29,464 bases of DNA, from the IMG/VR virus record IMGVR_UViG_3300032249_000651, positions 1 through 29,464 of that record; one strand, given 5' to 3'. Below are positions 1 to 28,242 of the stretch, in pieces (the stretch's first letter is position 1; the number at the start of each line of letters is the position of its first letter). This DNA comes from a virus. The notes below the pieces were generated by a model. That model was not told the DNA's origin and searched no databases. It was given only the letters and a program-made list of their open reading frames with translations. The translations under genes were made by a program, and so were the position numbers.

Positions 1-1071
1 AGCACCCGGAGGCGTGATGGTCACGGTGAGCTGGTCACCGGCCGATGCCGCCTGAGCCACCGCTGGCGAACGAGGCGACTCGCCAAGCTCGTTGACCGAC
101 GTCACGTAGTAGGTGTACGTGCCGGCCGGGAGGCTGGTGCTGCCAGCTGCAGTGCCGACCGTGATGGTCGGTGCTGCCGGACCATTGCTGCGAGGTGCCG
201 CCGGACGGGTCTTGCCGGAGAGGAACCGCGAAGACTCCAGGTTCACGATGCCGTTGCTCACCCACTGCTTGCGCAGCTCGGCGCCAGTTGCATCCTGTGC
301 AGAACCAGCCAGCACGATGCGCTCCTTGCCGAAGGCGATCTTGTTGTACGCCGAGAGCACCTTGGGGTCAACCAGGAGCTTGTCAGCCGAACCGAGGTTC
401 ATTGCCGACCGCGTGGAACCGTCTTCGATCATGTCCTGCGACAGGGTCCCGCCGCCCGAGATGATGACAGTGTCGTCCGAGCCGTACTCGCCGAACATCA
501 GGTCAGTCGCGTTGCGCTCTGCGTCCGACTGACGAATCTGAGCATCGAGGCCCAGCATCGAGGGGAGACCAGGAATCGCCAGCGGGTTGCCGTCGAAGAG
601 ACCAGCGTTCACGAAGTCCGCCTTGCCACGGAAGAGGTCGAACTCGATGTCGGCCGCGAGCTTCTTCGCCGCATCCGATGCCGCACGCTCTTCAGCTTTC
701 TGGCCGTCGACCGTGTCCACCATGTTCGCCACGATGCTGACTCGGCGAATGTGGCTGTAGTACGCCATCGCGACCACGATACGGACGAAGTCGCTGTTCT
801 CTTCCTGGCCGACTGCGCCTTCGAGCTGAGCGGACCCGCCGAACACGCCGTAGCTGAGCTGCCGGTTGAACTGGGCGAGAGTCGACTTGCAGCTGTCGAC
901 CTTGACCATCTTCTGGAGCTTGATGTGGCTGTCGTCGAAGGTCACATTGTGCATGACCGGAGACAGGTCCTCAATCTGGAGGGATGCGCCCTGCACGAGA
1001 GTGCTGGGTGCTGCGTTGTAGTTGCCGGCTTCGAGAGCCTTGAGCAGTGCCTGCGTGACTTCAGTTGCCAT
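1..1071 (-). CDS. Major capsid protein (partial, C-terminus beyond window)
   Basis: This would be the main shell subunit of the phage head. The start is ATG at 1071, preceded by a strong GAGGAG ribosome site; 357 codons are present and the frame is open at the window edge. The N-terminus (residues 11-36) has a motif with core ALEAGNYNAAP followed by a Gln-Ile-Glu-Asp-Leu stretch, then a long alpha/beta region with many Asp and Gly residues. From about residue 290 the chain becomes Pro/Ala/Gly/Thr rich and ends in a fibronectin- or Ig-like sequence (GTYTYYVTSVNELGESPRSP), a common add-on domain of capsid proteins. The assignment rests on gene order (protease, decoration, scaffold, then this gene) and overall look, not on a catalytic motif. 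The first residues match a segment inside the prohead protease protein at 4199-7657, which supports a head role. Confidence 0.8.
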   Translation of the reverse strand, partial: MATEVTQALLKALEAGNYNAAPSTLVQGASLQIEDLSPVMHNVTFDDSHIKLQKMVKVDSCKSTLAQFNRQLSYGVFGGSAQLEGAVGQEENSDFVRIVVAMAYYSHIRRVSIVANMVDTVDGQKAEERAASDAAKKLAADIEFDLFRGKADFVNAGLFDGNPLAIPGLPSMLGLDAQIRQSDAERNATDLMFGEYGSDDTVIISGGGTLSQDMIEDGSTRSAMNLGSADKLLVDPKVLSAYNKIAFGKERIVLAGSAQDATGAELRKQWVSNGIVNLESSRFLSGKTRPAAPRSNGPAAPTITVGTAAGSTSLPAGTYTYYVTSVNELGESPRSPAVAQAASAGDQLTVTITPPGA

Positions 1072-2635: not shown

Positions 2636-3007
2636 GTGGGCCAAAAAAACTGGAAAAGCAGCAATCTTCAGGACATGAAGAAATGCAGCCTCTGCGGGCT
2701 ACCGCAACCAGACGACCGTTTTCATGAGAGGAACGACAAGGCTCCAGGCGCCAGGCGTAGCCAGTGCGAGGACTGCAGGTCGAAAATCTACTTCAAGAAA
2801 CGATACGAGACCCCATGCTCCAGATGCCACAGACACAGGCGGCTAGGCTCAAATGGGGTCTGCTCAAAATGCCTCTTAATTCAAGGCCTTAAGGAGTGTA
2901 AGATCTGCACGAACATCCTGGCTATCGCCGTGCAATTCTACGAAGGCAGAGCCGTCTGCGGGCCGTGCTTAGCTCTTCGTAGACGCAGCCGGAGCCAGAG
3001 CAGCTGA
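2636..3007 (+). CDS. Small multi-zinc-ribbon protein on the opposite strand of the head cluster
   Basis: A 123-residue basic protein (GTG start; an in-frame ATG at 2675 is an alternative) carrying six CxxC pairs: CSLC, CEDC, CSRC, CSKC, CKIC and CGPC. These suggest three tandem zinc-binding units. The first unit, counted from the ATG, has C4, C7, F16-H17, G25, C31 and C34. It matches the N-terminal zinc module of the endonuclease VII gene at 26887 nearly position for position, but no HNH nuclease domain follows. The gene interrupts a run of minus-strand head genes, and its last 39 bases overlap the 3' end of the convergent GGDEF gene. It may be a remnant or relative of a homing endonuclease, or a small nucleic-acid-binding regulator. 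Confidence 0.6.
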   Translation: MGQKNWKSSNLQDMKKCSLCGLPQPDDRFHERNDKAPGARRSQCEDCRSKIYFKKRYETPCSRCHRHRRLGSNGVCSKCLLIQGLKECKICTNILAIAVQFYEGRAVCGPCLALRRRSRSQSS

Positions 3008-4195
3008 GGGTTGTTCGGGCTGAACGACCTGCACCGGAACAGGCTTTGGCTCAGGAGCCGGAAGAGGCTTCAGAGGAAGCTGGTCGCTCCCGGTTGGGAT
3101 GTGGCCTTCGAATCCTGGAACCTGACTGGCCGCGTGAGTCTTGGCTTGCCCAGGCGTGTACCCCGCTGCCTTCTTGGCTCCCTTGGCGTTGATGAGAGCC
3201 AGCTCTGCGTGGTCTGGCGTGTGCCCGAAGCCCAGGCTGAGGCTGAGGCTGTGAGTTCCACCGACAGCCGGAATGGCCTCAAGCTTGTTGCGCACAGTTC
3301 TCGCGAAGTGTGCTGCATGCTCGTGACTGGGGACGAAGGCGTGGAACTCATCGCCGCCAATCCGGAAGACCTTCCCATGCGAACGGCCAACAGCTTCATC
3401 CATAGCTTCACGGATGGCTGCACCCATGGCGCTGATAGCCTTGTTGCCGATTTCGAATCCATGGACCTTGTTGATGCCACCGAAGTCGTTGCCGTCCATG
3501 CGAACGTGAACGCCGGCCTTGGGTCGACTGAGGAAGTCGAGGTAGGCCTTCTTGTTGCCCATGCCCTTGACCATTGAATCGGTGAAGATTTCGTTGGTCA
3601 GATGCTTCAGAACGTCAGGGTGGACATGGCCGCTCTTGACGGCCTGTCGCAAGCCAGCAAGGGCTGCGTCCAGTTTCGGTTCCACCTTGGCCAACGTCAT
3701 GAAGAAGTCCTCGGCTTTCTCCAGGCTGTCCTGCTCCGCCTGCTTGTATCCGAGAGTCGCATTGCCTGCCTGTACGTTGTCAAGCATCTGCTGTAGTTCT
3801 TCCTGCGAGAGAGGATGTCCGTCCAGGTAGGGCTTACCCTCGTGAAACTCCAGCAGCTGAGCCTCGGGCACGCCAATCCTGTGGTACTCGAAACGGGACT
3901 CGGGGCCGGCACTGGCCGGCACTGGGGTCTCAGGAATCAGCTCTGGGTGTTTGCCCTGTCGAATGTCTTCGGCGCTGACCACCTTGTAGTACATGCTATT
4001 GGCCAGTCGCCAAATGACCGAAGAGGCCTCAGCTGGACTCTTCCTGGACAGCTCTCCAAGCCATCCAACATGGTCTTCGAGGACCTCGAAGTGGTCGTTG
4101 TCAAGGAAAAACTTCCCGACAACAACAGGATGGAGGTCGTGGTCCCCGTGCGGATGGAGCTGGACAATGAGGTAGACGTTGTGTAGATCGGCCAT
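2969..4195 (-). CDS. GGDEF-domain protein (diguanylate-cyclase-like) in the head gene cluster
   Basis: A 408-residue protein starting three bases after the prohead protease stop. Residues 1-90 form an unrecognised alpha/beta domain rich in His and Asp. A helical linker follows to about 225. Residues 228-345 match the GGDEF fold: D234 and N236 stand where the family has the DxD pair before F238, followed by N242, G246 and G250; the signature RIGGDEF is intact at 278-284; SLSLGFG and LINAKGAKKAAG match the family's C-terminal strand and helix. The Pro-rich tail (370-408) looks disordered. GGDEF enzymes normally join two GTP into cyclic di-GMP, and some relatives make other nucleotides; which applies here is unknown. 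No RxxD inhibitory site is obvious upstream of GGDEF. Sharing a transcript with the protease suggests a virion or late-infection role. Confidence 0.8.
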   Translation of the reverse strand: MADLHNVYLIVQLHPHGDHDLHPVVVGKFFLDNDHFEVLEDHVGWLGELSRKSPAEASSVIWRLANSMYYKVVSAEDIRQGKHPELIPETPVPASAGPESRFEYHRIGVPEAQLLEFHEGKPYLDGHPLSQEELQQMLDNVQAGNATLGYKQAEQDSLEKAEDFFMTLAKVEPKLDAALAGLRQAVKSGHVHPDVLKHLTNEIFTDSMVKGMGNKKAYLDFLSRPKAGVHVRMDGNDFGGINKVHGFEIGNKAISAMGAAIREAMDEAVGRSHGKVFRIGGDEFHAFVPSHEHAAHFARTVRNKLEAIPAVGGTHSLSLSLGFGHTPDHAELALINAKGAKKAAGYTPGQAKTHAASQVPGFEGHIPTGSDQLPLKPLPAPEPKPVPVQVVQPEQPSAALAPAASTKS

Positions 4196-4198
4196 GGG

Positions 4199-7100
4199 TT
4201 ATCTTACCTTAAGAGGGAGCCGCTGTCTAACAGGCGTGGAGCTGGGCGTGTCGGGCTCGCCATCCAGAGCGGGGTCCCCTACACTGAAGGGCGCCTTCAT
4301 CACCGAAGCGATAGTAGCGTTCGGGTTCTTGGCCTCCCTCTGGATAGCGACCAGCCGTCGCCGAGCTTCCTCGATGTAACGCCGAGGAACGGCATGGGAC
4401 ATCAAGTCCATTTCCAGCTGAACGGGGTCCAGGCTCTGCACCCACTTGGCCGCTTCCGGGTGGAACTTGCTGATGTTCAGGTTCGGCTCACCCTCCTTGA
4501 GAGGACCGTTGGCGAGATGGTAGAGCTTCAGATAGTCGGGAGTCGGTACAGGGTAGAAGCTGTCCTTCGAGAAGGCGTAACCGTGGTCAATCAGCTTCAT
4601 CCCACCAGGGACCATCATGAAGTTGCCACGATGGCGGTCGTGGTTGCTAGCAATGACATTCATCACGGTCATCTTGTGAAGCTCACCGCTTTCAGCAAGC
4701 TGTTTCAGAGTAGCCTGATGTTCAGGGTTCTCAGTATCCACGTGCTCTCCACGGGCAACGTTCTCAATGACAGCGTGCTTCTGACCAGTGCGAGGATGCA
4801 GGACTACACCAGTGGGGGCCACATACTTCCCCATGCCAAAGAAGTCACGTGCCAGGTTGTGGTAGAGAGCTTCACGAGAAGGTTCGTCGAACTCGTTCTC
4901 GTCGTGACTTGCCTTGACGTAAACTCTGCGCCCCTTGTTGGTAGTCCAGAAGCTTCGGTCCATGTTGATGCCAGAGGTGGCACCTTGTTTCTGTGCGTCG
5001 AAGTCGAGTCCATCGACCAGATTACGAACATCGTCGTGCTTGGTGTACTCACGGACACCGTGCAAGTCTACGCTTACGATTGAAGGTTCAGCGAGAGGCT
5101 CGGGGTAGCGCTGAACGCTGGCGCCTGAAGTCCGGGGAATCTTCATCAGGTCTTCACTGGTCCAGGCGTGAGCCTTTTCCCGTGGCACACCGATGAGGTG
5201 CTCGGGAGTTGCCCCGAAGAAGACCATTTTCTTGTTGCCAGGGATGTAGCCATGGCCAGGCTTCACTGTCTTGCCCTGGAACTGCACCGTCTCAGGAATC
5301 CCTGGTTTCTGTGCCTGAGTTTCGTCCTTGCGGAGTTCGGTCGCCATCTGCTCAAACTTGGCGACCAGGCGGTTCTCACTAGGAGCCAAAAGCTGTGGCA
5401 CGAGGTAGTGGAAGTACAGCATCAAGGCTGGCATCTCGCCGTACTTCTGAACCCACTCACTGTGGGTCTGTGCCGTGCGGGCTGCGAGAGTCATGTCCAG
5501 CCCCTGAGCTTCTGCCTTCTTCAAGTACGGACCAACAGCGTCCCAGAAGGGCTTGTGGTCGGTGGCCTCGTTGAATCCGCCAGTCTTCATGCCACGGGCA
5601 GCCTCATGGGGAACGATACCTACCCAGTTCTTCCAGAAGGCAGGGAAAATGGCGTCCTCTGGATTCTCGAAGTGTTTTCCCCACGTAGGGTGCTGCAGCA
5701 TATGCTGAACGGCGTCGTGGTGCTTGCCGTAGTAGCGGTCAAGAGCCCCCATGATATGGCTGTTGTTTGCGTTCCAGAGCAAACCGTCGCGGATGTACCT
5801 GATGCTCTCCATGTCCTGGTCTTTATCGAGACCGAACAGGTATCGGCTGAAGTGAGTGTCGGGCACGGTGACGTTGCCACCACCGAGCATGCCGTAGGTG
5901 TAACGGGCCGTCTTGGTGGCGAGTCCAGGAACGCTCGGGCCGGCAGTGTAGGGCCCAATGTCCGGGCGACCCTTGGCGGTCTCGCGTTCTCTCTTGGCGT
6001 TCCAGAGGCCTGCCTGCTTCTTGTGAAACATCAGCTCTTCGACTGCAGAACGTGCATCGTGTCTGTGTCGATTGACCAGCTCCATCAACGGCTCATGAAG
6101 CGTGTGGTACTTCTCCATGTTCTTGAACTTGTTGTTGGCAAGCATGAAGCCGCCGATGTCGCCCTTCTTTCGACCAGTGAGGTCTGAGTCACTGGAAATA
6201 CGAAGAGCATTCTCCAGGCGGTGGAAGTGGTCGCGGCTGTGCTCAGGGAAGTTCAACGGCTGGTCACGCTTCAGCCAATCGCGACGAATCTGCTCCAATC
6301 CTTCTGGAGAACGGAAGTCTTTGCCGGTCGCCTTCATCGAGTCCACGAGGTGGGCGTACATCATCTCCTGGAAAGGCACGGGGGTGTTCGGCGACAGCTG
6401 GCTGAACAGAACACCGTGCATCACCACCTCTGGGGGCAGTGTGCCATTCTTGAGATGCTGGTGAACCTTGGTCCAGTTCTGCATCGCGTAGTCGTGAAAC
6501 TTCTCGACGTTTGGGTCCCGCATGATGTTGTGGAACTTCTCAGCTGCCCCCGGGGTCTCAGTGTCGCGGCTGGGAATGTACATCGGGAAGCTACCACGAG
6601 GCGTGTGGAGTACCCCGGTGTTCTCGTCGAAGTGAGGCTTGTCGATGCCAGGGTTGGGCTCCACAGGCTTCCCACGAATGGTCAGTCGGCTGTCTGGCTC
6701 AACCTGAATCACTGGAGCCTGCTTGGGAGCAGCAGGCTTGGCCTTCTGTGCTGGAGCTTTTGGTGCAGGCTTTGCCTTTTCCTTGATTTTCTTCACCAAA
6801 TAGCCTTTGATGGCGTCCTTCTGGGCCTTCTTGATGGTGTAGTCGTGGACCAAGTCTGCGAATCGGTCAACGAACTCATCGCTGGCCTCAGGGAGGCGGT
6901 GCTTGAGGAACTTGCGAAAAGGAGTCTTGCGGTCCCAATCACGGACAGCGGCCTTCACGCGGTTACGCAGGCCTGCGTCTTCCCGCTGAAGAGCGGCACC
7001 GCCAGTGAGGGTCCCTGGTGCGGCGTTGGTGTTGCCGGCCTCAAGGGCCTTGCGGATGTTCTCGCTCTCAGGAACGATGCTGCTGATGTCGACGGAAACG

Positions 7101-7657
7101 GCACCACTGAGCTTCGAGTACATGGGGTGCTCGTGCTCGTGCTTCTTCGTCTCAAGGGGATCAGACACGAGGCCGGCGACCGCGCTCTTGTTGCAGGGCT
7201 TCCAGGTCAGGGCAACCCGCCGGCAGATGGAGGCCTGAAGCAGGTTGTCCTTACGCTTGAGAGTGGTCCCTTCGATCGAGAAGCCGGGACGAACCTCTTC
7301 CCCGTTCTTGATGCAGTCTCGGATGATGGCTGCAGCAGCAACGGCACCAGGATGGCCGCTACCATCAAAAAGACGAACGATTCCGTAGATGAGGGGCAAC
7401 TGGACCTTCTGCCAGTAGGTCAGCTGTCGACTGTCAGTGCAGTCCTCAGGACCGTAAATCTTCTTTGCAAAAATCACCTTGCCGATGATGTCATTGGCGC
7501 TGGCACCGGCGGCATCATCGCCTCTGTGCTCGTAGTTGAGGGTGCCGAGGCCGTTCTCCAGGTCAGAGATGTCCGCGCCCTCGATGGACAGAATCTCGCC
7601 GCTGCTGTCGATGGCCTCAGAGGCAAACACGCCGTCGATGATCAAACCAGTTGACAT
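4199..7657 (-). CDS. Prohead protease fused to DNA-glycosylase-like and kinase-like domains
   Basis: A 1152-residue multidomain protein. Residues 1-170 look like a phage prohead (capsid maturation) serine protease: the likely catalytic His is H44 in NYEHRG and the likely Ser is S127 in PGFSIEG. Residues 203-227 repeat the capsid N-terminal motif (KALEAGNTNAAP). A Lys/Pro/Ala-rich linker spans about 285-325. In the region about 370-760, VPGLATKTA (576-584) matches the helix-hairpin-helix of endonuclease III, and PDTHFSR carries D600 exactly 18 residues after K582, the same spacing as catalytic Lys120/Asp138 of E. coli Nth; the Fe-S cysteines are absent. Residues 860-1050 look like a HipA/PI3-kinase-type kinase: K915 in VYVK, NHDRHRGN (D1007, N1012) and LIDHG (D1024). 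Known prohead proteases are far shorter, around 200 residues. Cleavage between the parts is likely but not shown. Confidence 0.8.
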   Translation of the reverse strand: MSTGLIIDGVFASEAIDSSGEILSIEGADISDLENGLGTLNYEHRGDDAAGASANDIIGKVIFAKKIYGPEDCTDSRQLTYWQKVQLPLIYGIVRLFDGSGHPGAVAAAAIIRDCIKNGEEVRPGFSIEGTTLKRKDNLLQASICRRVALTWKPCNKSAVAGLVSDPLETKKHEHEHPMYSKLSGAVSVDISSIVPESENIRKALEAGNTNAAPGTLTGGAALQREDAGLRNRVKAAVRDWDRKTPFRKFLKHRLPEASDEFVDRFADLVHDYTIKKAQKDAIKGYLVKKIKEKAKPAPKAPAQKAKPAAPKQAPVIQVEPDSRLTIRGKPVEPNPGIDKPHFDENTGVLHTPRGSFPMYIPSRDTETPGAAEKFHNIMRDPNVEKFHDYAMQNWTKVHQHLKNGTLPPEVVMHGVLFSQLSPNTPVPFQEMMYAHLVDSMKATGKDFRSPEGLEQIRRDWLKRDQPLNFPEHSRDHFHRLENALRISSDSDLTGRKKGDIGGFMLANNKFKNMEKYHTLHEPLMELVNRHRHDARSAVEELMFHKKQAGLWNAKRERETAKGRPDIGPYTAGPSVPGLATKTARYTYGMLGGGNVTVPDTHFSRYLFGLDKDQDMESIRYIRDGLLWNANNSHIMGALDRYYGKHHDAVQHMLQHPTWGKHFENPEDAIFPAFWKNWVGIVPHEAARGMKTGGFNEATDHKPFWDAVGPYLKKAEAQGLDMTLAARTAQTHSEWVQKYGEMPALMLYFHYLVPQLLAPSENRLVAKFEQMATELRKDETQAQKPGIPETVQFQGKTVKPGHGYIPGNKKMVFFGATPEHLIGVPREKAHAWTSEDLMKIPRTSGASVQRYPEPLAEPSIVSVDLHGVREYTKHDDVRNLVDGLDFDAQKQGATSGINMDRSFWTTNKGRRVYVKASHDENEFDEPSREALYHNLARDFFGMGKYVAPTGVVLHPRTGQKHAVIENVARGEHVDTENPEHQATLKQLAESGELHKMTVMNVIASNHDRHRGNFMMVPGGMKLIDHGYAFSKDSFYPVPTPDYLKLYHLANGPLKEGEPNLNISKFHPEAAKWVQSLDPVQLEMDLMSHAVPRRYIEEARRRLVAIQREAKNPNATIASVMKAPFSVGDPALDGEPDTPSSTPVRQRLPLKVR

Positions 7658-8334: not shown

Positions 8335-8363
8335 CAAAGGGCCGGTACTTAGCCGGCCCTTTG
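8335..8363. terminator. Bidirectional rho-independent terminator
   Basis: A perfect 11-base-pair stem, CAAAGGGCCGG pairing with CCGGCCCTTTG, with a seven-base loop. The stem ends in A/T pairs, so it can stop transcripts from both sides. The TAA of the MuF-like gene lies in the loop. It separates the convergent plus-strand unit (7735-8332) from the minus-strand portal/MuF genes. Confidence 0.8.
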
Positions 8364-9113
8364 AGCTTTGTACTCGTCGTAGCCTGGACTCTTGTACTGC
8401 ACCTTCCCGCCGGCATCGAACCCGTACCCCGGAATCAGGGTGGTGAGGACGCACCGACAGTGTGGGTGAAGTCCCCCAACCTTGGGGTTTGAGTCGCCCT
8501 TCTTGTGGTACGAGCTTCCGACCTCACTCAGCTTCCAGACCCTGGGAGTGACTTGGTCGGGCTGGACATGAAGCCGTGTACATTCGCTACACCGGTGCTG
8601 GTCACGGACCGTCACGAAGAATACCGTCGGGTCGTCCACACCGGCCAGGGCGTTCGTCTTGACGATGCCATCCATGATGCTGGTGTTTCGCACCACCGTA
8701 GACTCGGTCTCGAAGATTCGCTTCAGGTCTCTGGATGCTTCGCCCATGACCTCGTACAACTTTCCCCCCAGGACCGTCTCAACGCTGGTCTCGACGCCTG
8801 TATTGGAGGCCTCCGTTAGGAAGGCCTGAACCGACTGCACCACCTTAGCTTTCGCCCTTTCTTTGGTCGCGTCGATGTAAGCATTGGAAATCTTGAGGAG
8901 TGTCTTGAGTACGTCCTGGTCAGGAACAACACCTTCCTCGGCTGCTGCAGCGTCGAAGATCCCCTTCAAGGTCAGCTCAGGCTTGTAGGCGATGTACAGC
9001 CTCTTCCCGGTGGGGTGTTTGTCGCCCATGGTGTGGGTGCGAATCTTCTCGAACAACGAGTCGACCGCACCCTCAATGAGCTTGACAGCTGCCGGGCCTA
9101 GACGCGGCTTCAT
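8349..9113 (-). CDS. MuF-like minor head (head morphogenesis) protein
   Basis: A 254-residue protein overlapping the portal gene by four bases (ATGA). The N-terminal half is helical. The C-terminal half has the MuF/SPP1 gp7-type pattern: FETESTVVRNTSIMDG, then FVTVRDQHRCSEC with C175 and C178, then LHPHCRCVL with H216, H218, C219 and C221, which together form a probable zinc site. Proteins of this family sit inside the head near the portal and are often injected or used in assembly. The gene ends inside the terminator loop. Its length is normal for a MuF protein without a fused toxin. Confidence 0.8.
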   Translation of the reverse strand: MKPRLGPAAVKLIEGAVDSLFEKIRTHTMGDKHPTGKRLYIAYKPELTLKGIFDAAAAEEGVVPDQDVLKTLLKISNAYIDATKERAKAKVVQSVQAFLTEASNTGVETSVETVLGGKLYEVMGEASRDLKRIFETESTVVRNTSIMDGIVKTNALAGVDDPTVFFVTVRDQHRCSECTRLHVQPDQVTPRVWKLSEVGSSYHKKGDSNPKVGGLHPHCRCVLTTLIPGYGFDAGGKVQYKSPGYDEYKAQRAG

Positions 9114-11311
9114 TTTGACTTCCTCTTGGTCGCCGGCTTGTGCTTGTCGGCAATACTCACGATTTCCTTGAGCGCTTCCTGGGACTCGTGCTCGAAGGAC
9201 TGAAGAGCCTTCTTGACGAACATACGCTGTTGAGCCAGGAGCTTGCGCCTACTGGTGGGCATCTGAGCTTCAGACTTCGTGAGAAGGCTCGTGAGCTGGT
9301 CCAGGCTTCGAGTCAAATCTTGCGGTGCGTCGTCTGGGGTGGAGGTGTCGTCGCCCCCTTGCTGGGGTTGACCTCCTGCGTCCTGGCCATCCCCACCATT
9401 GCCGCCATCATCACTACCCTCACCACCCTCAGGGCCACCAGAACCGCCGCCGTCGCCAGAACCATCCCCACCCCCACCAACTGAAGGAGGAGGCTGCTGG
9501 GCCGCCATCTGCGCCTGCTGTTCCATTTGTTGCTGCTGCATGAGGAGCTGCATCTGGGTGAAGTAGTTGGGGTTATTGAGGAAGTCATAGCGTGGATCCT
9601 TGGAGGCGCCCTTCATGCCGAAGAAGTGCTCCATGATAGCACCTTGGGGGACGTACTTGTCGAGCACAGCCTGCCACTGGGGGTTGAGGAGGAACTGTCC
9701 GCCCCACTCCTTGCCGACTGGCTTCTTCTCGACCTTGTCGAGGACCTCGTCCATGTTCATGTGGACGGCCATGTCCTGCTGGAGGCGAGTGCTCTCCTTC
9801 TCTGCCGTCTCGACATCGAGGCCGACGAACTTGAAGCTGCACATCTTGGATAGCTCTTCGTCGATGAGGGGCAGAATCTTCGCGTTCACGAAGTTCTGGA
9901 ACTGAGCCAGCATCGGACGGATACCAACGTCACGGTGAGCTTCCAATTTGTACTCGTTGTTCGACTCGCTCAGCGCCTGGTTGTTCGTACCACGCGACAG
10001 GTGGGCATAGCCTGGCAGCTCTTCAGGGCTCATCTGGAAGCCAGAGAGAATGACCCGAGCATTGGTATCGCTGAGGTACTGAAACTCCATGTCACGGGAG
10101 CTGTTGTCGATTGGGTACCAGCCAATGTCATCGTCGGTACCGACCCCAAAAATAGGCATGCGCCAGGCATTACCGACCGAGTTGATGCTGGCCTGGAACT
10201 GCTGGCGAATGTGCTTGATGACACCATCGTCTGCGTCATCCGATTTGATGACAATCATGCCACGCGCAGCACGGCCGCTCTGGAAGTAGAGCTTGTTGTG
10301 GTTGCCGATATTGATGTGCGTGGTGACGGCCGTGATGATAGTGTCGAGCGGAGTCAGCGGGTAGCCGTCCAGCTCCACGTCAGTCACAGGGTAGAAGTTG
10401 TGAAGGAGGCATTCCTCTGCGGTGAATGCCTGGACAGGGCGACCGGCGATGACCTGAACCCAGGAGTACTCGTCATCTTGAAAACGCTCAGGTTCCAGGT
10501 CCTTGTTCTTGACCTGCTCCAGAAGCTTACGGGCCTGACGGCGAACAGCGTCGCCAGCCTCCTTCTGAGGCGCAGCCCGATAGATGGTGCCCGCATCAAT
10601 GGGTCGGAAGGAGTGGAACTTCTTCTTGCCATCAAAGCCCATGGAGTAGATGGCTTCAGTGGCGATCCGCCCGAAGAGGCAGGCGTTGCGAGCTTGCATG
10701 TGGAGGAACTGTCCGAAGCTGAGGGCGTCCACATCCTTCCAGCCTCGTGTCTGGCCACAGCTCAGAATCTTCAGCTCAGCAGCGCTGATTTTGTCCTGGA
10801 GCTTCTTCTTCTCCTGGTCGCTGAGACCTTCCAGTACTCCTGGCCCAGGTTCAATCTTGTATCCAGTACTGAACCGGTCAGGCTGCGGTCGGCCAAAACT
10901 GGCCATCTGGTTCGAACGGGCATTGCAAATTGCAGCCACCAGGTCGTCCTGGATACCGATGCGCTTCAGAACGTCATCGGGCAGGAGGCGTTGCTTGACC
11001 TTGTAAAGGCTCTGGTAGGTGTTGTTGAGGCTTGGGTCTGTATCGAACGCAAGACGCTCGATGGTGTCTCCAGGCCCATTGAGGAGGTTCATCACAGACT
11101 TGACCAGAGGGCTCATGCCGGCGACGCGCTTGTCCTCGGCCACAATCTGCTCAGGAGTCATCTCGGTACGCCCGAAAGGGTCCGTCAACGCCACGGAGAT
11201 GGTCTTTTTGCCAGACTTGGAAAGGGGCTGTGGCCTACTGACGACCGCCTCGATGATGTTCTTGGCGATAGGGCTCAGGTCGTCTTCGATGCTATTGCGC
11301 TTTCTGGCCAT
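9110..11311 (-). CDS. Portal protein
   Basis: A 733-residue protein, long for a portal (usually about 450-600), at the expected place between terminase and MuF genes. The central region (about 330-510) has typical portal features: QSGRAARGMIVIKSD, a stretch containing WYPIDNSSRDMEFQ, and the block with FQMSPEELPGY. Residues about 609-650 are a Gly/Asp/Ser-rich, low-complexity linker after a Gln/Met-rich helix. The tail (about 665-733) is helical and basic. The portal forms the dodecameric ring through which DNA enters and leaves the head. The start is ATG at 11311 with GGAG eight bases upstream. The Gly-rich linker and tail are extra relative to standard portals. Confidence 0.85.
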   Translation of the reverse strand: MARKRNSIEDDLSPIAKNIIEAVVSRPQPLSKSGKKTISVALTDPFGRTEMTPEQIVAEDKRVAGMSPLVKSVMNLLNGPGDTIERLAFDTDPSLNNTYQSLYKVKQRLLPDDVLKRIGIQDDLVAAICNARSNQMASFGRPQPDRFSTGYKIEPGPGVLEGLSDQEKKKLQDKISAAELKILSCGQTRGWKDVDALSFGQFLHMQARNACLFGRIATEAIYSMGFDGKKKFHSFRPIDAGTIYRAAPQKEAGDAVRRQARKLLEQVKNKDLEPERFQDDEYSWVQVIAGRPVQAFTAEECLLHNFYPVTDVELDGYPLTPLDTIITAVTTHINIGNHNKLYFQSGRAARGMIVIKSDDADDGVIKHIRQQFQASINSVGNAWRMPIFGVGTDDDIGWYPIDNSSRDMEFQYLSDTNARVILSGFQMSPEELPGYAHLSRGTNNQALSESNNEYKLEAHRDVGIRPMLAQFQNFVNAKILPLIDEELSKMCSFKFVGLDVETAEKESTRLQQDMAVHMNMDEVLDKVEKKPVGKEWGGQFLLNPQWQAVLDKYVPQGAIMEHFFGMKGASKDPRYDFLNNPNYFTQMQLLMQQQQMEQQAQMAAQQPPPSVGGGGDGSGDGGGSGGPEGGEGSDDGGNGGDGQDAGGQPQQGGDDTSTPDDAPQDLTRSLDQLTSLLTKSEAQMPTSRRKLLAQQRMFVKKALQSFEHESQEALKEIVSIADKHKPATKRKSK

Positions 11312-12340: not shown

Positions 12341-14275
12341 CTAACCGTCGAAGACGAATTTGCCTCGACGAATCGTCTTTCCGGGGACTGCGTCGGGAAC
12401 CTCACCAGTCAAAGCAGCGATGCGCTCTTTTAGAAATGAAGCCTGCTTGCCTGGGTCGTTCCTGCCAGTGGCCTCAGCGATGGTGTTCTTGATGTCTTCC
12501 AGGTCTGGCGACTTGGTGTTCGGAATGTTGATTTTGCCCTTGGGGGCAAAGACGTTCATTACCATGTACCGCATGGCATCCACTTCGTCGTCGTTGTCGT
12601 CGTCGGGCTCTTCTGAGATGAAACCGCCCGCATCGGTCATGAAGTGGTACTTCTCGATACGGGTCGCAAGCAGCTCGCAGAGGGGATCGTCCTTCAGAAG
12701 GAAGAGCTGGGGAGAGCCGGCGGCCGGCATGAGCTTCATTCGGACGACTTCGATGCCAGCCTTGACTGAGCCGGGGTACTTGGACCATTCGCGCATGTTG
12801 AAGCCTTTGCGCTTGAAGGTCTTGATGTCGGCAGGCGACTCTGGGTCGCCGTAGATGGTCGGGTTGTAGGCTCTAAGAGGCTCGCAGACAGCCACCTTCT
12901 CATCCAGCTCCAGGTTGGGCATGGCGATGACCGTGAAGATGAACATGAACTGCCCAAACACAGCAGAGACAGTCACTGCGAAGTTGTGAGTGAAGCCGAA
13001 GTCCATGCCAGCGTAGAACCGGGCACCCTTGTCGACCATCAGCTGCAGTAGCTGCGACTTGGTCATGTTGGGGTCCTGCTTCTCCCCGGTAATCATCTCC
13101 GCCATCTGAGACGCGGTCTTCATGTGAATCTCGCGTTCGAACTTGGGATAGATGAGGCCGCTGGCGTCCGGTTTTCGGCAAAGAAGCTGTGTCTGGACTG
13201 CAGCAGCACTGCTCTGCTTGAAGGCGTTGATGATGGAAGGGATGGGCTTGAGCATAGGGCTCTCGCTCTTCTGGTGCGTAGCGAGGCGACCCTTGCAGGC
13301 AGGAAAGAGCGGGCACTTCTGACAGCCGGCGAAGCCCTCTCGTGGGTAGTACTTCTTCTGGTTCTGTTCATCGAGCAGCTTGTAGTCTTCCTCCGTGATA
13401 TGACGGAGGTTGCTGTCGTTGATGTAGTAGGTTCTCTTGGGCTTCTCAGGCTCATGCCGAGAAGGCTCGCACGCCTTCGTGATGTCGATGACATTCCAGT
13501 GCCGGACATGCAGCCCTGTCTCGCTGCTGTTCTGAATCTCGGTCTGCACCAGGCCGTAGCTGAACTTCCGGGTCGATGTGAGCAGAGTGATTGGCATCAT
13601 CCCGTCACGCGGGTCGGGGATGTGCTTGGCTTCTTCGTAGGCCCTGATGTGCTGTTTGGGCACGACGTCTACCTCGTCAACGCACAGAAATTCGGTGTGA
13701 GCCGAGTTGGCACCCTGCATGGTACAGAGGACGATTTGAATGTAGTTGTACTTGCGCTGGTAGGTGTTCTTGGTCTCAGAAGGAAGGTCGAGCCACTCCT
13801 TCTCGGTCAGGCTGCGGCCTGTTTCAGGGTTGTAGTACCGGCAGATTTCAATCTTCTTGACGTTCTGTCCAATACGGAAGTCTCGAATGTACGGACTTGC
13901 GAAGAAGTCCCGAACGTACTCCTGGCTCTTCTTGGACTGGTCGAAGATGGCCGCCATGTGGGCGACGTTTCGATTCAGGTGCAGGACCTGCAGGACCTCC
14001 AGAACAGAAGCGCCGAGGGTCTTGAATCCTCCTCGATTGGCGTAGGCCATGACACGGCTGAAGTTTTCGTCGTCATTCAGCCGCGCTTTGTTGTAGACCT
14101 CCCAAATCATGTCCATGGGTGAGCTGTTCGATTCATCACTGACGATACAGTCAGGGAAGAACAGCTTGGGACCCAAGAAGACACGAATCCACCGAGCCAG
14201 AGCGTCTTTCGACTCGCAGGGAGTGAAAAGCAGCTGGCGGATTTCGTCCTCCTGGCTGGGGACGAAGTCTGACAT
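12341..14275 (-). CDS. terL: Terminase large subunit (packaging ATPase and nuclease)
   Basis: A 644-residue protein. The ATPase domain has a variant Walker A at 80-86 (NRGGFKT) and Walker B with catalytic Glu at 196-201 (FLCVDE). The RNase H-like nuclease domain has three acidic residues: D425 in YAGMDFGFTHNF, D477 in YGDPESP and D566 in DDEVDAMRY. It pumps DNA into the prohead and cuts the concatemer. Between the domains is a Cys cluster, C318, C321 and C327 (CQKCPLFPAC), that could bind zinc or iron-sulfur with a fourth ligand not identified (C366 is one candidate). It overlaps the cysteine-peptidase gene by one base at TAATG, so the genes are translationally coupled. Length and motifs indicate an intact enzyme. 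Confidence 0.93.
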   Translation of the reverse strand: MSDFVPSQEDEIRQLLFTPCESKDALARWIRVFLGPKLFFPDCIVSDESNSSPMDMIWEVYNKARLNDDENFSRVMAYANRGGFKTLGASVLEVLQVLHLNRNVAHMAAIFDQSKKSQEYVRDFFASPYIRDFRIGQNVKKIEICRYYNPETGRSLTEKEWLDLPSETKNTYQRKYNYIQIVLCTMQGANSAHTEFLCVDEVDVVPKQHIRAYEEAKHIPDPRDGMMPITLLTSTRKFSYGLVQTEIQNSSETGLHVRHWNVIDITKACEPSRHEPEKPKRTYYINDSNLRHITEEDYKLLDEQNQKKYYPREGFAGCQKCPLFPACKGRLATHQKSESPMLKPIPSIINAFKQSSAAAVQTQLLCRKPDASGLIYPKFEREIHMKTASQMAEMITGEKQDPNMTKSQLLQLMVDKGARFYAGMDFGFTHNFAVTVSAVFGQFMFIFTVIAMPNLELDEKVAVCEPLRAYNPTIYGDPESPADIKTFKRKGFNMREWSKYPGSVKAGIEVVRMKLMPAAGSPQLFLLKDDPLCELLATRIEKYHFMTDAGGFISEEPDDDNDDEVDAMRYMVMNVFAPKGKINIPNTKSPDLEDIKNTIAEATGRNDPGKQASFLKERIAALTGEVPDAVPGKTIRRGKFVFDG

Positions 14276-22164: not shown

Positions 22165-23976
22165 ATGCAATACGCAAAGGTGAAGTCGGTCAGCAAGGAG
22201 ATTCTCAGCAGGGGGCCAACGCTCCAGAAGCTGATTCTCCAGACGATGAAGACCTGTTCTGATGTCGTGGGGTCCACTCTGGGTCCTGGCGGCATGTCGG
22301 TCGTCATTGAGCGCCAGGAAGAGCGCCTGCCTCCGATGATTACCAAGGACGGTGTAACGGTCTTCAAGAACTTGGGATTCGACAACGCCTCTCAGCAGGT
22401 CATCATGGAAGCTGCCAGAGACGCTTCCGTTCGCACTGCAGCTGAAGCTGGCGACGGAACCACCACTGCGACCATCCTCGCAGAAGCTCTGGTCCGGCAT
22501 ACCATGGAGTTCTGCGAGGCCAATCCCAAGGTCTCCCCTCAGCGGGTTGTTCGCACCCTAGAGAAGGGTTTCAAGTCTGTCGTCGAGCCTTGGATTCGCA
22601 AGAACGTCTACAAGGCCGACCTGGGGACTGAAGGTGGTCGCTATCGTCTCCGGTCTGTCGCCAAGGTCTCGGCAAACGGTGATACCCAGCTGGCCGATGC
22701 CGTGCTGGAGTGCTTCGACCTCTGTGGTGACGAGGGCAACGTGACTCTTATCGAGGCGTCGGGTCCGAGCGGGTACGAGGTGGAGCACCTTGAGGGGTAC
22801 CCTATCTCGGCCGGCTACGAGGAAAGCTGTGGGAAGTTCTACCAGGCCTTCATCAATGACCCGGGTCGTCAGATTTGCGCCCTGAACAAGCCCCAGTACG
22901 TGCTCTACCATGGACGTCTCGCGGACATCTACACCGCCCTGACCCTCTTCGAGAAGATCGGCGAAGCATCTGCCCAGGGCCTTTGTAGCCACAATGCCGT
23001 CTTCGTGGCAACTGGCTTCTCCGAGACGGTGCTGGCCCACCTGGCGACCAACTTCCAGGACCCACGCACCCCCAACATCTACCCCCTCGTGGCACCCATG
23101 AGCCCTATGTCGACTGGCCAGTACGACTTTCTGGCGGACTTGGCTGGCATCACGGGAGGTCACATCTTCGACCCCCTCAACGCTCCGCTGGAGAATGCTG
23201 AGCTGTCTCAGCTGGGGACCAGTGACACATTCGAGGCTGCACGGTTCCGTTCCACTGTCCTGGGTTTCCGTGACGAGCTGTTGATTCTGGAGCGTGTCGA
23301 CCAGCTGAAGCAGCTCCTGGCCAGTGGGTCCCTTTCGATGCAGGGCACCAGCATCGTCCAGGAGCGTCTGGGCAAAATCACCGGCGGAATCGCTAAGCTG
23401 AAAATCATCGGAGCTTCTGCTGGTGAGCTTCGTGAGAAGCGCGACCGTGCCGAAGACGCCATCTGCGCTGTCCGTGGCGCCCTGAAGCATGGCACCCTCC
23501 CCGCCGGTGGCTGGGCTCTCCTCAAGCTTCGCGAGCACATCGACTACTTGGAACAGGGTGACCACGGCCTTTCGGCTTCGGAGGTGGAAATTCTTCAGCG
23601 GGTTCTTGGGACCTCCTTGAAGGTGCCTGTTGATCGCCTTTTCACGAACGCCGGCTACACTGAGCAAGAGCGCGACGACGCCATCGTTGCAATCCTCGCT
23701 CCATCCGAGCCCTACTCCCCGGTCGGTCAGGACGATGTCCTCGTCTTCGACCTGCTTGAGGGCAAGCTCGTCGACTGCTTTGCTGGAGGCCTGCTCGACA
23801 GCACCCCAGCCGTCCTTGAGGCCATCAGGAATTCCATCAGCATCGCTTCCCTTCTGGGCACCTGTGGTGGTACAGTAGTCTTCAAGAGAGACCTGAGCCT
23901 TGAACGACAAGACGCCCGAGACAACAACGAATTCCTCCGAAACGCCAACGTCAACGAAGCCGACGAACGCCCCTGA
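22165..23976 (+). CDS. GroEL-like chaperonin (Hsp60)
   Basis: A 603-residue chaperonin subunit, somewhat longer than GroEL (about 548). ATP-site residues are preserved: GSTLGPGG (36-43, but KGR of bacterial GroEL replaced by GG), KDGVTV (D62, GroEL D52), AGDGTTTAT (D97, GroEL D87) and D431 in AEDAICAVRGAL (GroEL D398), followed by LPAGGWALLKL as in VAGGG. The C-terminus lacks the GGM repeat and ends in a charged tail. Phages such as EL and OBP encode their own chaperonins for folding virion proteins. Starts one base after the GIY-YIG stop, with AAGGGG upstream. The matching co-chaperonin is at 17034. Confidence 0.93.
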   Translation: MQYAKVKSVSKEILSRGPTLQKLILQTMKTCSDVVGSTLGPGGMSVVIERQEERLPPMITKDGVTVFKNLGFDNASQQVIMEAARDASVRTAAEAGDGTTTATILAEALVRHTMEFCEANPKVSPQRVVRTLEKGFKSVVEPWIRKNVYKADLGTEGGRYRLRSVAKVSANGDTQLADAVLECFDLCGDEGNVTLIEASGPSGYEVEHLEGYPISAGYEESCGKFYQAFINDPGRQICALNKPQYVLYHGRLADIYTALTLFEKIGEASAQGLCSHNAVFVATGFSETVLAHLATNFQDPRTPNIYPLVAPMSPMSTGQYDFLADLAGITGGHIFDPLNAPLENAELSQLGTSDTFEAARFRSTVLGFRDELLILERVDQLKQLLASGSLSMQGTSIVQERLGKITGGIAKLKIIGASAGELREKRDRAEDAICAVRGALKHGTLPAGGWALLKLREHIDYLEQGDHGLSASEVEILQRVLGTSLKVPVDRLFTNAGYTEQERDDAIVAILAPSEPYSPVGQDDVLVFDLLEGKLVDCFAGGLLDSTPAVLEAIRNSISIASLLGTCGGTVVFKRDLSLERQDARDNNEFLRNANVNEADERP

Positions 23977-24965: not shown

Positions 24966-26890
24966 TGGTCCGCTTGCAGTGGCTGAAGCTCCGTGCCTTC
25001 CGGAGCTTCGCTGAAGAGGCCAAGGTAGAGTTCCCTCCCAATGGGCTTCTTCTCATTCGTGGGAAGAATCTATCCAACCAAGACCCCAGCGGAACAGGTA
25101 AGTCGACTGTCATGTTGGCCGTGGCGTACGCCCTGGACATCTGCCCTTTTCCGGCGACCGAGCTTCAGAGTTGGCTGACGGAAGAGCCCATGCAGGTCCA
25201 GTTGGGTCTGGAGACCTCCGAGGGGCCCGTTGTCATTAGTCGTGGCAAGAAGAGCAGCCTGAAGGTCGGTGAAAAGACCGTGACCAGCGCTAAAGCCATC
25301 GCTGAAGAGCTTCGGCGTATCTTTGGTCTGGACTCGGAGACTCTCCGGGCAATCACGTATCGCGCCCAGAATACCCAGGGCTTGTTTTTGAGTCTTGGCG
25401 ACAGCGAGAAAAAGGAGTTTCTCACCCGGCTGCTGGGGCTGACGAACATTGAGACGGCCGTCGACCAGGCTGAGGATCGAATCAAGAGCCTCAAGCCGGC
25501 GCTTGAGAGCGCAGAGGCGGTTGTCGCCTCCAGCCTCCAGGAACTACAAACCCTTCAGGCGCAGGAGTTCCCTCAACTGGAAGATACCTCCGGTCTCAAG
25601 GCCGAGTTCCAGGAGCTGTGGAAGAAGAAGACCGAGTTGACCCAACGTGCCTCCGAGATTGAGAGCCAGGCGACCGGCAAAAAGATGGAGGTCAAGGACC
25701 ACCCAGAACTCATCAAGCTGAACGGCTACATCAACGCAGCCAAGGCTCAGTACGAGGTAGCCCTGGAAGCTCAGCAGGTTCGAGAGAGGGAGTTCCGCTC
25801 CAACCAGGAGGTCCTTCGAAAGAAGCTGACCGACATCGCTCAAAGAGACACGATGATTCTCAACTACCGAAAGGAGATTGAGGGGTATCGAAATCACATT
25901 GTCAAGCTCACGGCTGGACATTGCCCCACCTGCAATCAGGCCTGGAGCGACGCCCAGGCTAAAGCGAAGGCTGTAGAGGCGCAGGTCGAGAACCTAGAGG
26001 CAACTGTCAGCTCTTTGTCTCGACAGCAGAGTGACCGGCAACGTCTTGAGGCTGAGCTTCGGGTGAACTTCAGCTCTGACCCAAACGTCGAGAAGCTTCG
26101 CGGCCTGAAGACACAGCTGGAGATGCAGCTGCAGGAGAAGACTCAAGCACTCGTGTTCTCGTCCACCCAGGAGCTACAGGCGGCTCTCAGTGCTGTCAGG
26201 TCGGAACTTGAGTCAGTCCAAGTCCGGCTGGGGAGCGTCAATCAGCAAATCATGATGGTCGAGCAGATGAACGCGAAGCTCCTCCAGGCTCGGCGCTTTG
26301 CTGAGAGCAACATCTCCGCTGTGAAGACCAAGCTCGAAGCGGCACAGCTCAAGGTGAAGGAGCACAGCCTCGCCGTCAACGCTGAGCGTGACTTCGTGTC
26401 CATGATGGGTCGTGAAGGCTTCCTTGGTGTCATTTTTGATGACATCCTGAAGGAGATTGAGGCGGAGGCGAATGAGCGGTTGGCCCGACTCGCCAACGTC
26501 TCTCACGTGACCATCAACTTCAAGTCTGAGGTGACCACTGGTAAGGGTACCGTCAAGCGAAGCATCACCCCAGTGGTATCAGTCAACGGCCAGGAGGCCA
26601 AGCTCGATTCAGGCCTCAGCGGAGGCATGTACACCAGCGTGGAAGGTCAGGTCGACCTTGCTGTGATGGCGGTGGTTCAGCGTCGGACCGGCGCACTTCC
26701 TGGGTTCCTATTCTTGGACGAGAGCTTCAATGGCCAGGGCAACGTCACCAAGGAGGCGACCATGGAGGTCTTGCGTGAGTACGCCCAGGAGAAGCTCGTG
26801 GTGGTAATCGACCACAACTCCGAATTCAAGGAATTATTTTCTACTTTCATAGACGTAATCTATGAAAATGGGAGATCATCCATAAAATGA
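24965..26890 (+). CDS. SbcC/Rad50/gp46-like SMC-type ATPase
   Basis: A 641-residue protein. Walker A is PSGTGKST (41-48). Long coiled coils (about 165-310 and 330-490) flank a zinc hook CPTC (320-323). The signature LSGG is at 551-554 and Walker B FLFLDE at 581-586. It bridges DNA ends and controls the SbcD/gp47 nuclease; the partner is encoded at 15858 on the other strand. T4-type recombination-dependent replication uses this pair. The length is near T4 gp46 rather than the much longer bacterial SbcC. Starts at ATG 24965, one base overlap with the zinc-ribbon gene. Confidence 0.92.
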   Translation: MVRLQWLKLRAFRSFAEEAKVEFPPNGLLLIRGKNLSNQDPSGTGKSTVMLAVAYALDICPFPATELQSWLTEEPMQVQLGLETSEGPVVISRGKKSSLKVGEKTVTSAKAIAEELRRIFGLDSETLRAITYRAQNTQGLFLSLGDSEKKEFLTRLLGLTNIETAVDQAEDRIKSLKPALESAEAVVASSLQELQTLQAQEFPQLEDTSGLKAEFQELWKKKTELTQRASEIESQATGKKMEVKDHPELIKLNGYINAAKAQYEVALEAQQVREREFRSNQEVLRKKLTDIAQRDTMILNYRKEIEGYRNHIVKLTAGHCPTCNQAWSDAQAKAKAVEAQVENLEATVSSLSRQQSDRQRLEAELRVNFSSDPNVEKLRGLKTQLEMQLQEKTQALVFSSTQELQAALSAVRSELESVQVRLGSVNQQIMMVEQMNAKLLQARRFAESNISAVKTKLEAAQLKVKEHSLAVNAERDFVSMMGREGFLGVIFDDILKEIEAEANERLARLANVSHVTINFKSEVTTGKGTVKRSITPVVSVNGQEAKLDSGLSGGMYTSVEGQVDLAVMAVVQRRTGALPGFLFLDESFNGQGNVTKEATMEVLREYAQEKLVVVIDHNSEFKELFSTFIDVIYENGRSSIK

Positions 26891-27351
26891 AAACTTGCAA
26901 CTGTTGTAAGAAGGAAAAGGCGGCCAACGAGTTCCACAAGAACAAAAGAGAGTCTGACGGCCTATCGAACAGGTGTACCGCATGCCAGAAAGCTGCGGCT
27001 GCAGACTACTACCGAAGAAACAAAGACCTTGTTGCGGCGAAGTCGAAGTCGTACTACAAGGCCAATTCAGAAAAGATCAAAGAGCGAACCAGCTTCTACT
27101 GGACTGAACGAAACACCGGTGTTGGAAGGGAAGAGTACATGGCAAAAGCAGAGGCACAGGGGTTCAAGTGCGCCATCTGCTTTACCGTAGACCCCAAGCG
27201 CAGACTGGCAGCAGATCATGACCACAAGACGGGCAAAGCCCGAGGTCTTCTTTGTAGGGACTGTAACCAGGTCCTAGGGAAGTTCAACGACGATCCAGAC
27301 AGGTTCGTTCGTGCAGCCAACTACATCAAGCAGTACTCGGAGATTGCATGA
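26887..27351 (+). CDS. Endonuclease VII-like HNH nuclease with N-terminal zinc module
   Basis: A 154-residue protein. Residues 4-33 form a zinc module (C4, C7, C30, C33, with FH at 16-17). Residues 93-127 are the recombination endonuclease VII signature: CAIC (95-98), DHDHKTG (110-116) and RGLLCRDCN (119-127). T4 gp49 of this family resolves branched DNA before packaging. It overlaps the SbcC gene by four bases, fitting a recombination operon. The N-terminal module is shared with the small gene at 2636, as seen in free-standing homing nucleases, so a mobile origin is possible. Confidence 0.85.
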   Translation: MKTCNCCKKEKAANEFHKNKRESDGLSNRCTACQKAAAADYYRRNKDLVAAKSKSYYKANSEKIKERTSFYWTERNTGVGREEYMAKAEAQGFKCAICFTVDPKRRLAADHDHKTGKARGLLCRDCNQVLGKFNDDPDRFVRAANYIKQYSEIA

Positions 27352-27583: not shown

Positions 27584-27862
27584 ATGGGACGCGGAGCAAA
27601 GAAGAAGGGCAAGTTCGATGACCTCGACTTGGAGTTCAAGAGCAACATCGAGAACATGACCGAGGAGGAAATCAAGCGGCGGATCTCCGAGGTGGCAATC
27701 GCTGAGCACGAGAACCGAGAGGCCAAGAGCAAGGACCAGGACCTGGCCGACAAGGTGGCGGCGGTGAAGTTCGCCTCTGAGCAGTACCGAGAGGCAACCA
27801 AGATGAACAAGCTGCGTATCGCCTACGCTCACTTCATCCTCGAAGCTCGCGGAAAGGTCTGA
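27584..27862 (+). CDS. Small hypothetical helical protein
   Basis: A 92-residue protein starting at ATG 27584 after AAAGGAGAA. Starts MGRGAKKKGKFDDLDLEF, then mostly Glu/Lys/Ala helices suited to a coiled coil. Its stop overlaps the next start by one base. First gene of a unit with a promoter at 27530. No family recognised. Confidence 0.6.
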   Translation: MGRGAKKKGKFDDLDLEFKSNIENMTEEEIKRRISEVAIAEHENREAKSKDQDLADKVAAVKFASEQYREATKMNKLRIAYAHFILEARGKV

Positions 27863-28242
27863 TGTCTGCTGATGAAGAGGTGATGCCTCTCATCACGCCT
27901 ACCAAGGCAACACTGGACCGGTACGGCCTAAGCTACGAAGAGTGGCGTCGTATGGCCGACGAACAGAAAGAGGCGTGCTTCGTGTGCGAGCAAAGGCCCA
28001 AGAAGGGCCGGCTCTGTATCGACCATGAGCATGTCAAGAACTGGAAGAAAATGCCACCTGAGTATCGCAAGCTCTTCGTACGGGGCTTGCTTTGCTTTCG
28101 TTGCAACACAACCTTTGTAGGCCGTGGAGTCACCATCGAGAGGTCCGAACAGGTTGTTCGCTACCTCAAGCTCTACGCCGCTCGTCGGATTGACCCGACG
28201 ACCGTACAACCGCTCAAGAAGAGCAAGGGAAAGAAGAAATGA
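27862..28242 (+). CDS. Second endonuclease VII-like HNH protein
   Basis: A 126-residue protein. The YGLSYEEWRRM start is typical of endonuclease VII relatives. The core is CFVC (39-42), LCIDHEHVK (51-59) and RGLLCFRCN (74-82), so all metal and catalytic positions are present. The tail is basic (KKSKGKKK). It probably cuts branched DNA or acts as a homing nuclease; a second copy beside the one at 26887 suggests different roles. It overlaps the ribonucleotide reductase start by four bases. Confidence 0.8.
   Translation: MSADEEVMPLITPTKATLDRYGLSYEEWRRMADEQKEACFVCEQRPKKGRLCIDHEHVKNWKKMPPEYRKLFVRGLLCFRCNTTFVGRGVTIERSEQVVRYLKLYAARRIDPTTVQPLKKSKGKKK

Follow-up and report, generated by a model that had tools for sequence, protein, structure and literature searches.

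How fixed amounts of effector enzymes are loaded into phage heads and freed is a long-standing question, and it is raised by one gene in a 29,464-base virus fragment (IMG/VR record IMGVR_UViG_3300032249_000651; the whole fragment is called the window here). The gene encodes a single chain in which a head-maturation protease is followed by DNA-glycosylase-like and kinase-like domains. The answer may lie in the sequence, since the N-terminus of the capsid protein is copied inside the cargo protein, and this capsid mimic is the most surprising feature of the chain. On balance, the protein is probably a polyprotein of the polyvalent type, both head-maturation protease and cargo carrier, which would dock in the procapsid, cleave itself at the mimic and be delivered.

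Domains of the polyprotein and their catalytic residues

An earlier note on this DNA had described a reading frame with a prohead protease in the first 170 residues, an endonuclease III-like site and a kinase catalytic loop. The frame at 4199-7657 is real and lies on the minus strand, and a script check found H44, S127, K582, D600, D1007 and D1024 at the positions given there. A plus-strand reading of 4199-7657 was rejected, its frame being broken by stops. Conservation was followed in 18 homologs, found by patterns that did not cover H44, S127, K582, D600, G578, H602 or R605, and in a wider set of about 35 contigs. No relevant match was found among PDB sequences with phmmer of the whole polyprotein or with hmmsearch using a profile of the 325-790 region.

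Judged by sequence, residues 1-170 are a head-maturation protease, as had been proposed, with predicted cleavage of the capsid protein. The family phrog_1028 ("head maturation protease") was matched by 10/18 homologs with a best E value of 1.8e-5; the window protein alone gave E 0.048. H44 and S127 were invariant in 18/18 homologs and in 34/34 of the wider set. Elsewhere, the record of the homolog L059 holds a second protease-domain-like stretch (G020:11857-12411, minus; E 8.6e-40) with three stop codons. It lies far from the head operon and is possibly a decayed duplicate.

Residues 380-760 were conserved as a single block, in which K582, D600, G578, H602 and R605 were invariant in 18/18 homologs. 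For the wider set the counts were 36/37 for K582 and 37/37 for D600, the latter count being in part a product of the search, since GNxxVPDTH served as one of the patterns. K582 and D600 are spaced 18 residues apart, and shuffling the residues of the polyprotein produced the pattern PG-hydrophobic-xx-K-17x-DTH once in 20,000 shuffles. A profile of the region was aligned by hhalign with an EndoIII profile of 12 endonuclease III homologs, assembled from plasmid and phage matches; E. coli Nth as a query had matched nothing in viral contigs. The alignment reached a probability of 86% (P 4.7e-6) and paired K582 with Lys120 and D600 with Asp138 of Nth. When L017, a homolog without the hairpin loop insertion, served as the hhalign reference, an ungapped match of 59 columns was obtained (probability 93%, P 2.5e-7). 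The reversed EndoIII profile and 60 column-permuted profiles scored at most 20, compared with 49-57 for the real profiles, and the kinase-region profile reached 0.3% against EndoIII. A chance origin of the K582/D600 pair was rejected by the conservation and these profile controls. A template-free AlphaFold2 (AF2) model of the region had a predicted local distance difference test (pLDDT) value of 84.8, with one helix starting at about K582 and the next immediately behind D600. Helix starts near the catalytic Lys and Asp are the geometry expected of the endonuclease III superfamily. We therefore hold with high, if not complete, confidence that residues 380-760 are a divergent HhH-GPD domain with putative glycosylase/apurinic-apyrimidinic (AP) lyase activity, which supports the glycosylase-like domain claimed earlier and points to a divergent HhH-GPD enzyme family overlooked by standard annotation.

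Several observations weigh against this assignment. The window is without a Pfam HhH-GPD (PF00730) match, and in 16 related records no match exceeded the cut-off. In a Foldseek search of the model against PDB, the highest listed probability was 0.35 (E 0.86, Deinococcus endonuclease III-1), which is not significant. Foldseek against the viral library BFVD returned matches at probability 0.99-1.00 to proteins without a name, which were counted as not significant for HhH-GPD. The polyprotein has no Cys after residue 155, so the EndoIII iron-sulfur cysteines are absent and no such cluster is expected, and in one homolog, L059, K582 is replaced by Glu. The nonsignificant fold search and the missing Pfam match would suit a different all-helical DNA-binding domain at residues 380-760, whose likeness to a glycosylase ends at the HhH hairpin and a coincidental Lys/Asp pair. 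This is very improbable in view of the invariance of K582, D600, H602 and R605, the helix starts in the template-free model and the ungapped match of L017.

Some relatives carry insertions matching Pfam Intein_splicing inside the HhH-GPD domain (L008:9932-14593, L048:2704-7044 and L055:2944-7989; possibly also L070:3625-8541, where the match is weak at E 0.041). In L008 the intein-like insertion sits between Y434 and A435 in window protein numbering. The domain of L069 contains a large gap and no intein match. In L065 the HhH-GPD domain lies within a GNAT protein without the protease, and it is therefore a movable module.

The kinase claimed for the C-terminal region was upheld and narrowed in type. 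Residues 855-1120 are modeled as a PI3K/PI4K/CtkA-type kinase fold (pLDDT 77.7), with Foldseek probabilities of about 1.00 to PI3K, PI4K and Helicobacter CtkA, an E value of 6.6e-5 to PI3K and template modeling (TM) scores of 0.48/0.50 to PI4KII-alpha. Pfam PI3_PI4_kinase (PF00454) matched with E 2.6e-5, slightly below the gathering score. D1007 and N1012 were each conserved in 18/19 sequences of the wider set and D1024 in 19/19. The kinase domain is essentially gone from L004 and L009, which end in 64-residue tails, and the catalytic loop of L008 looks degenerate; the kinase is therefore an optional module. Related phages carry kinase domains in further proteins too. Structure prediction, named in the earlier note as the check on both domains, thus recovered the kinase fold and left the HhH-GPD region with its best EndoIII match at E 0.86.

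A copy of the capsid N-terminal arm

The earlier reading, right in outline and partly supported, was incomplete; it had missed the capsid mimic and the GGDEF gene next to the polyprotein gene. When the window was searched with the polyprotein, residues 198-228 were found to share 61% identity over 31 residues with the N-terminal end of the major capsid protein encoded by the same phage. The match covers the full N-terminal arm and not a short cleavage motif, and it is kept in nearly all homologs directly after the protease domain. As to the capsid gene itself, the Mx1 gene homologous in position to window 1-1071 is annotated "major capsid protein", and the L009 copy has a weak SU10_MCP match. 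Seven phage records of 165-172 kb were searched for the N-terminal capsid motif. It was confined to major-capsid-sized open reading frames (ORFs), where it occurred once per record, and to about residue 200 of the polyprotein; one of the seven had an extra ORF of 339 residues. That ORF, a second major-capsid-like open frame apart from the main capsid gene, belongs to the record of L014, with the motif at G008:17194-17304 (minus). The possibility that the capsid-like stretch is a common phage sequence was rejected on this distribution in the seven records.

Since the polyprotein carries the mimic, a protease that cuts the capsid arm would cut its own chain there. By analogy with the capsid protein of Listeria phage A511, in which cleavage at Lys-23 has been reported, the cut may fall just after K203, within the mimic.

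Points on the other side also concern the mimic. No mimic match was obtained for two intact homologs (L050 and L069) at the threshold used, and the mimic may act in docking alone. In such a case it would serve docking or co-assembly with the capsid lattice, and the chain would be a core or scaffold with a protease head, whose enzyme-like domains are structural or degraded with the core and never delivered. The length of the mimic, which spans the whole arm and exceeds a cleavage motif, favors this alternative, as does the expectation that propeptides of other phage head proteins exit the head after cleavage (PMC10052503). We nevertheless consider it unlikely, because the near-strict conservation of the HhH-GPD and GGDEF catalytic residues is unneeded in a scaffold, and a separate acidic, A/P-rich ORF of the window (2077-1103) looks like the scaffold.

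The GGDEF companion and the proposed fate of the chain

The next gene encodes a predicted diguanylate-cyclase-type protein. Its catalytic positions were conserved in 30/30 homologs (D234, D282) and in 28/30 (E283). N251 of the window protein is Asp in 24/30 homologs. Known cyclases contact the base through this residue, and the Asn may therefore change base specificity and give a product other than c-di-GMP. In L014, L015, L016, L018, L019 and L020, which lack the kinase at this place, the chain of protease and glycosylase-like domain ends in a fused GGDEF domain. Across about 35 contigs, protease, capsid mimic, HhH-GPD, optional kinase and GGDEF follow one another in this order, encoded by a single gene or divided between two or more.

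The proposal can be tested directly in Myxococcus phage Mx1, a relative available in culture. Its "putative prohead protease" (WNM70322.1) shares 42% identity over 96% of the polyprotein length, and both the operon order and the domain order of the polyprotein are those of the window. The GGDEF region of Mx1 is split over two small genes. Downstream of its capsid gene lie a 1479-residue protein with GNAT, ART-PolyVal and NUDIX domains (L012:24404-28840), annotated as NUDIX hydrolase only, and a 619-residue kinase protein. Proteins of the NUDIX and GNAT types are found repeatedly in related phages. A scan of genome contigs found no relative, and there is therefore no evidence of prophages.

From the domain content, the conserved catalytic residues, the shared operon, the gene fusions, the mimic and the GNAT-ART(PolyVal)-NUDIX and kinase company in Mx1, we infer self-cleavage, packaging and injection. 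There are two precedents, the self-cleaving protease of phage SPN3US and the assemblin-like peptidases. The single chain would enter the interior of the procapsid, aided by the capsid-arm mimic. Once active, the protease would process the capsid protein and, at a site of like sequence within residues 198-228, also the chain of which it is part; this second cut would free the glycosylase/AP-lyase-like domain and the kinase domain, which the cyclase companion from the next gene would accompany. The freed enzymes would be retained in the head and enter the host along with the DNA. There, the HhH-GPD domain might act on DNA bases, either in repair of the incoming phage DNA or in an attack on host DNA, while the kinase would phosphorylate a host target and the GGDEF enzyme would make a cyclic dinucleotide. 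This points to injected enzymes of the diguanylate-cyclase type. More tentatively, the mimic may have a double role, placing the chain in the capsid lattice and being cut by the same protease, so that loading, release and injection of glycosylase/lyase, PI3K-like kinase and cyclic-dinucleotide synthase keep pace with capsid maturation.

Release or packaging at maturation had already been suggested in the earlier note. The mimic strengthens that suggestion; a search for virion proteomics or cleavage data on this phage group found none, which counts on the opposite side. The enzymes could also work late in the cycle, in the infected cell or the procapsid, for instance clearing abasic or damaged DNA sites before or during packaging, and not be injected. 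A procapsid-tethered HhH-GPD enzyme whose gene neighbors those for portal and terminase would be in a good position for such quality control of packaging. The kinase, GGDEF, ART, GNAT and NUDIX company is left unexplained by a late role and fits host-directed effectors, and we regard a late role as quite improbable.

The head operon and comparison with known systems

The coordinates are collected in Table 1. On the minus strand the head operon runs from terminase, portal and Mu F-like protein through the polyprotein and GGDEF genes and two smaller genes to the major capsid gene. Outside it, the window encodes a Cpn60/TCP-1 chaperonin homolog of 603 residues (22165-23976, +; E 7.8e-35) and two neighboring genes of the recombination endonuclease VII family (26887-27351 and 27862-28242, +). 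A Cys-rich ORF opposite the head genes (2636-3007, +) is, by its appearance, a candidate endonuclease VII look-alike.

Table 1. Features of the polyprotein and of the head operon (residues refer to the polyprotein, positions to the window)
Feature	Residues	Position	Strand	Basis or remark
Window				29,464-base IMG/VR virus fragment
Polyprotein gene		4199..7657	-	ATG at 7657, stop at 4199; 1152 aa plus stop
Head-maturation (prohead) protease, predicted	1-170	7148..7657	-	H44, S127
Mimic of major capsid N-terminus (ENIRKALEAGNTNAAPGTLTGGAALQRED)	198-228	6974..7066	-	match to window 1056-964(-)
Small conserved stretch, then Lys/Ala/Pro-rich linker (about 285-325)	229-325	6683..6973	-	sequence and alignment
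HhH-GPD domain with extra helices, putative	380-760	5378..6520	-	hhalign against EndoIII
Hairpin VPGLATK(582)T ... VPD(600)THFSR, putative catalytic Lys/Asp pair	576-605	5843..5932	-	aligned to E. coli Nth K120/D138
PI3/PI4-kinase/CtkA-type kinase domain, predicted	855-1120	4298..5095	-	catalytic loop NHDRHRGN, metal motif DHG
GGDEF protein, 408 aa, next gene		2969..4195	-	PF00990 E 3.4e-8; intact GGDEF motif
Mu F-like minor head protein		8349..9113	-	phrog_115 E 1.2e-5; operon context
Portal protein		9110..11311	-	phrog_15361 E 5e-18; operon context
Terminase large subunit		12341..14275	-	phrog_5653 E 5e-18; operon context
Major capsid protein		1..1071	-	exits window end; N-terminal arm ~1056-964 is the mimicked sequence

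Polyvalent proteins are large phage chains of unrelated enzyme domains, for which packaging and injection have been proposed (Iyer et al. 2017, PMC5512222). Their domains include peptidases, kinases, GGDEF, ART and GNAT, and assemblin-like peptidases have been proposed to process them (PMC5512222). The polyprotein likewise combines several enzyme domains that have no relation to one another, and its gene lies close to head genes. It differs in that its protease is N-terminal, whereas the assemblin-like peptidase is C-terminal, and the polyvalent kinase group without a C-terminal subdomain is of a different type from the window kinase (PMC5512222). The polyvalent-associated domains LPD, ArdC-N and MPTase had no Pfam match in the polyprotein; the Mx1 neighbor has ART-PolyVal. 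The main text of PMC5512222 does not contain the word "glycosylase", and no mimic of a capsid N-terminus was found in the passages of it that were considered.

The single domains can be set beside known enzymes as well. With endonuclease III (Nth) the window domain shares the HhH hairpin, the catalytic Lys/Asp spacing and the DTHxxR motif; unlike Nth, it has no iron-sulfur cysteines, carries added N- and C-terminal helices and a hairpin loop insertion, and lies below Pfam detection. The DxxxxN catalytic loop and the DxG metal motif are common to the window kinase and to PI3K/PI4K-like kinases including Helicobacter CtkA, but the identity is low (12-17%) and the kinase is an optional module here. 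The closest full-length counterpart, Mx1 WNM70322.1, differs in being annotated as a protease only.

Literature searches found no paper on a prohead protease joined to HhH-GPD and, judged by title and abstract, none on a packaged cyclase among virion-linked phage GGDEF proteins. A chlorovirus DNA glycosylase is stated not to be packaged (PMC7019647). The SPN3US prohead protease gp245 cleaves itself and ejected head proteins during maturation (PMC10052503). Its cargo is encoded in separate genes with propeptides and cleaved after A-X-E (PMC10052503), whereas the window protein has the capsid-arm mimic. The earlier expectation that a head protein of this composition would be new was too strong, since proteins of the polyvalent kind that contain assemblin-like peptidases, kinases and GGDEF domains had been described in 2017. 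Set against the part of PMC5512222 considered, assemblin-like peptidases, GGDEF, kinase and ART are known from polyvalent proteins, and what is new is the N-terminal position of the protease, the capsid mimic and the putative glycosylase.

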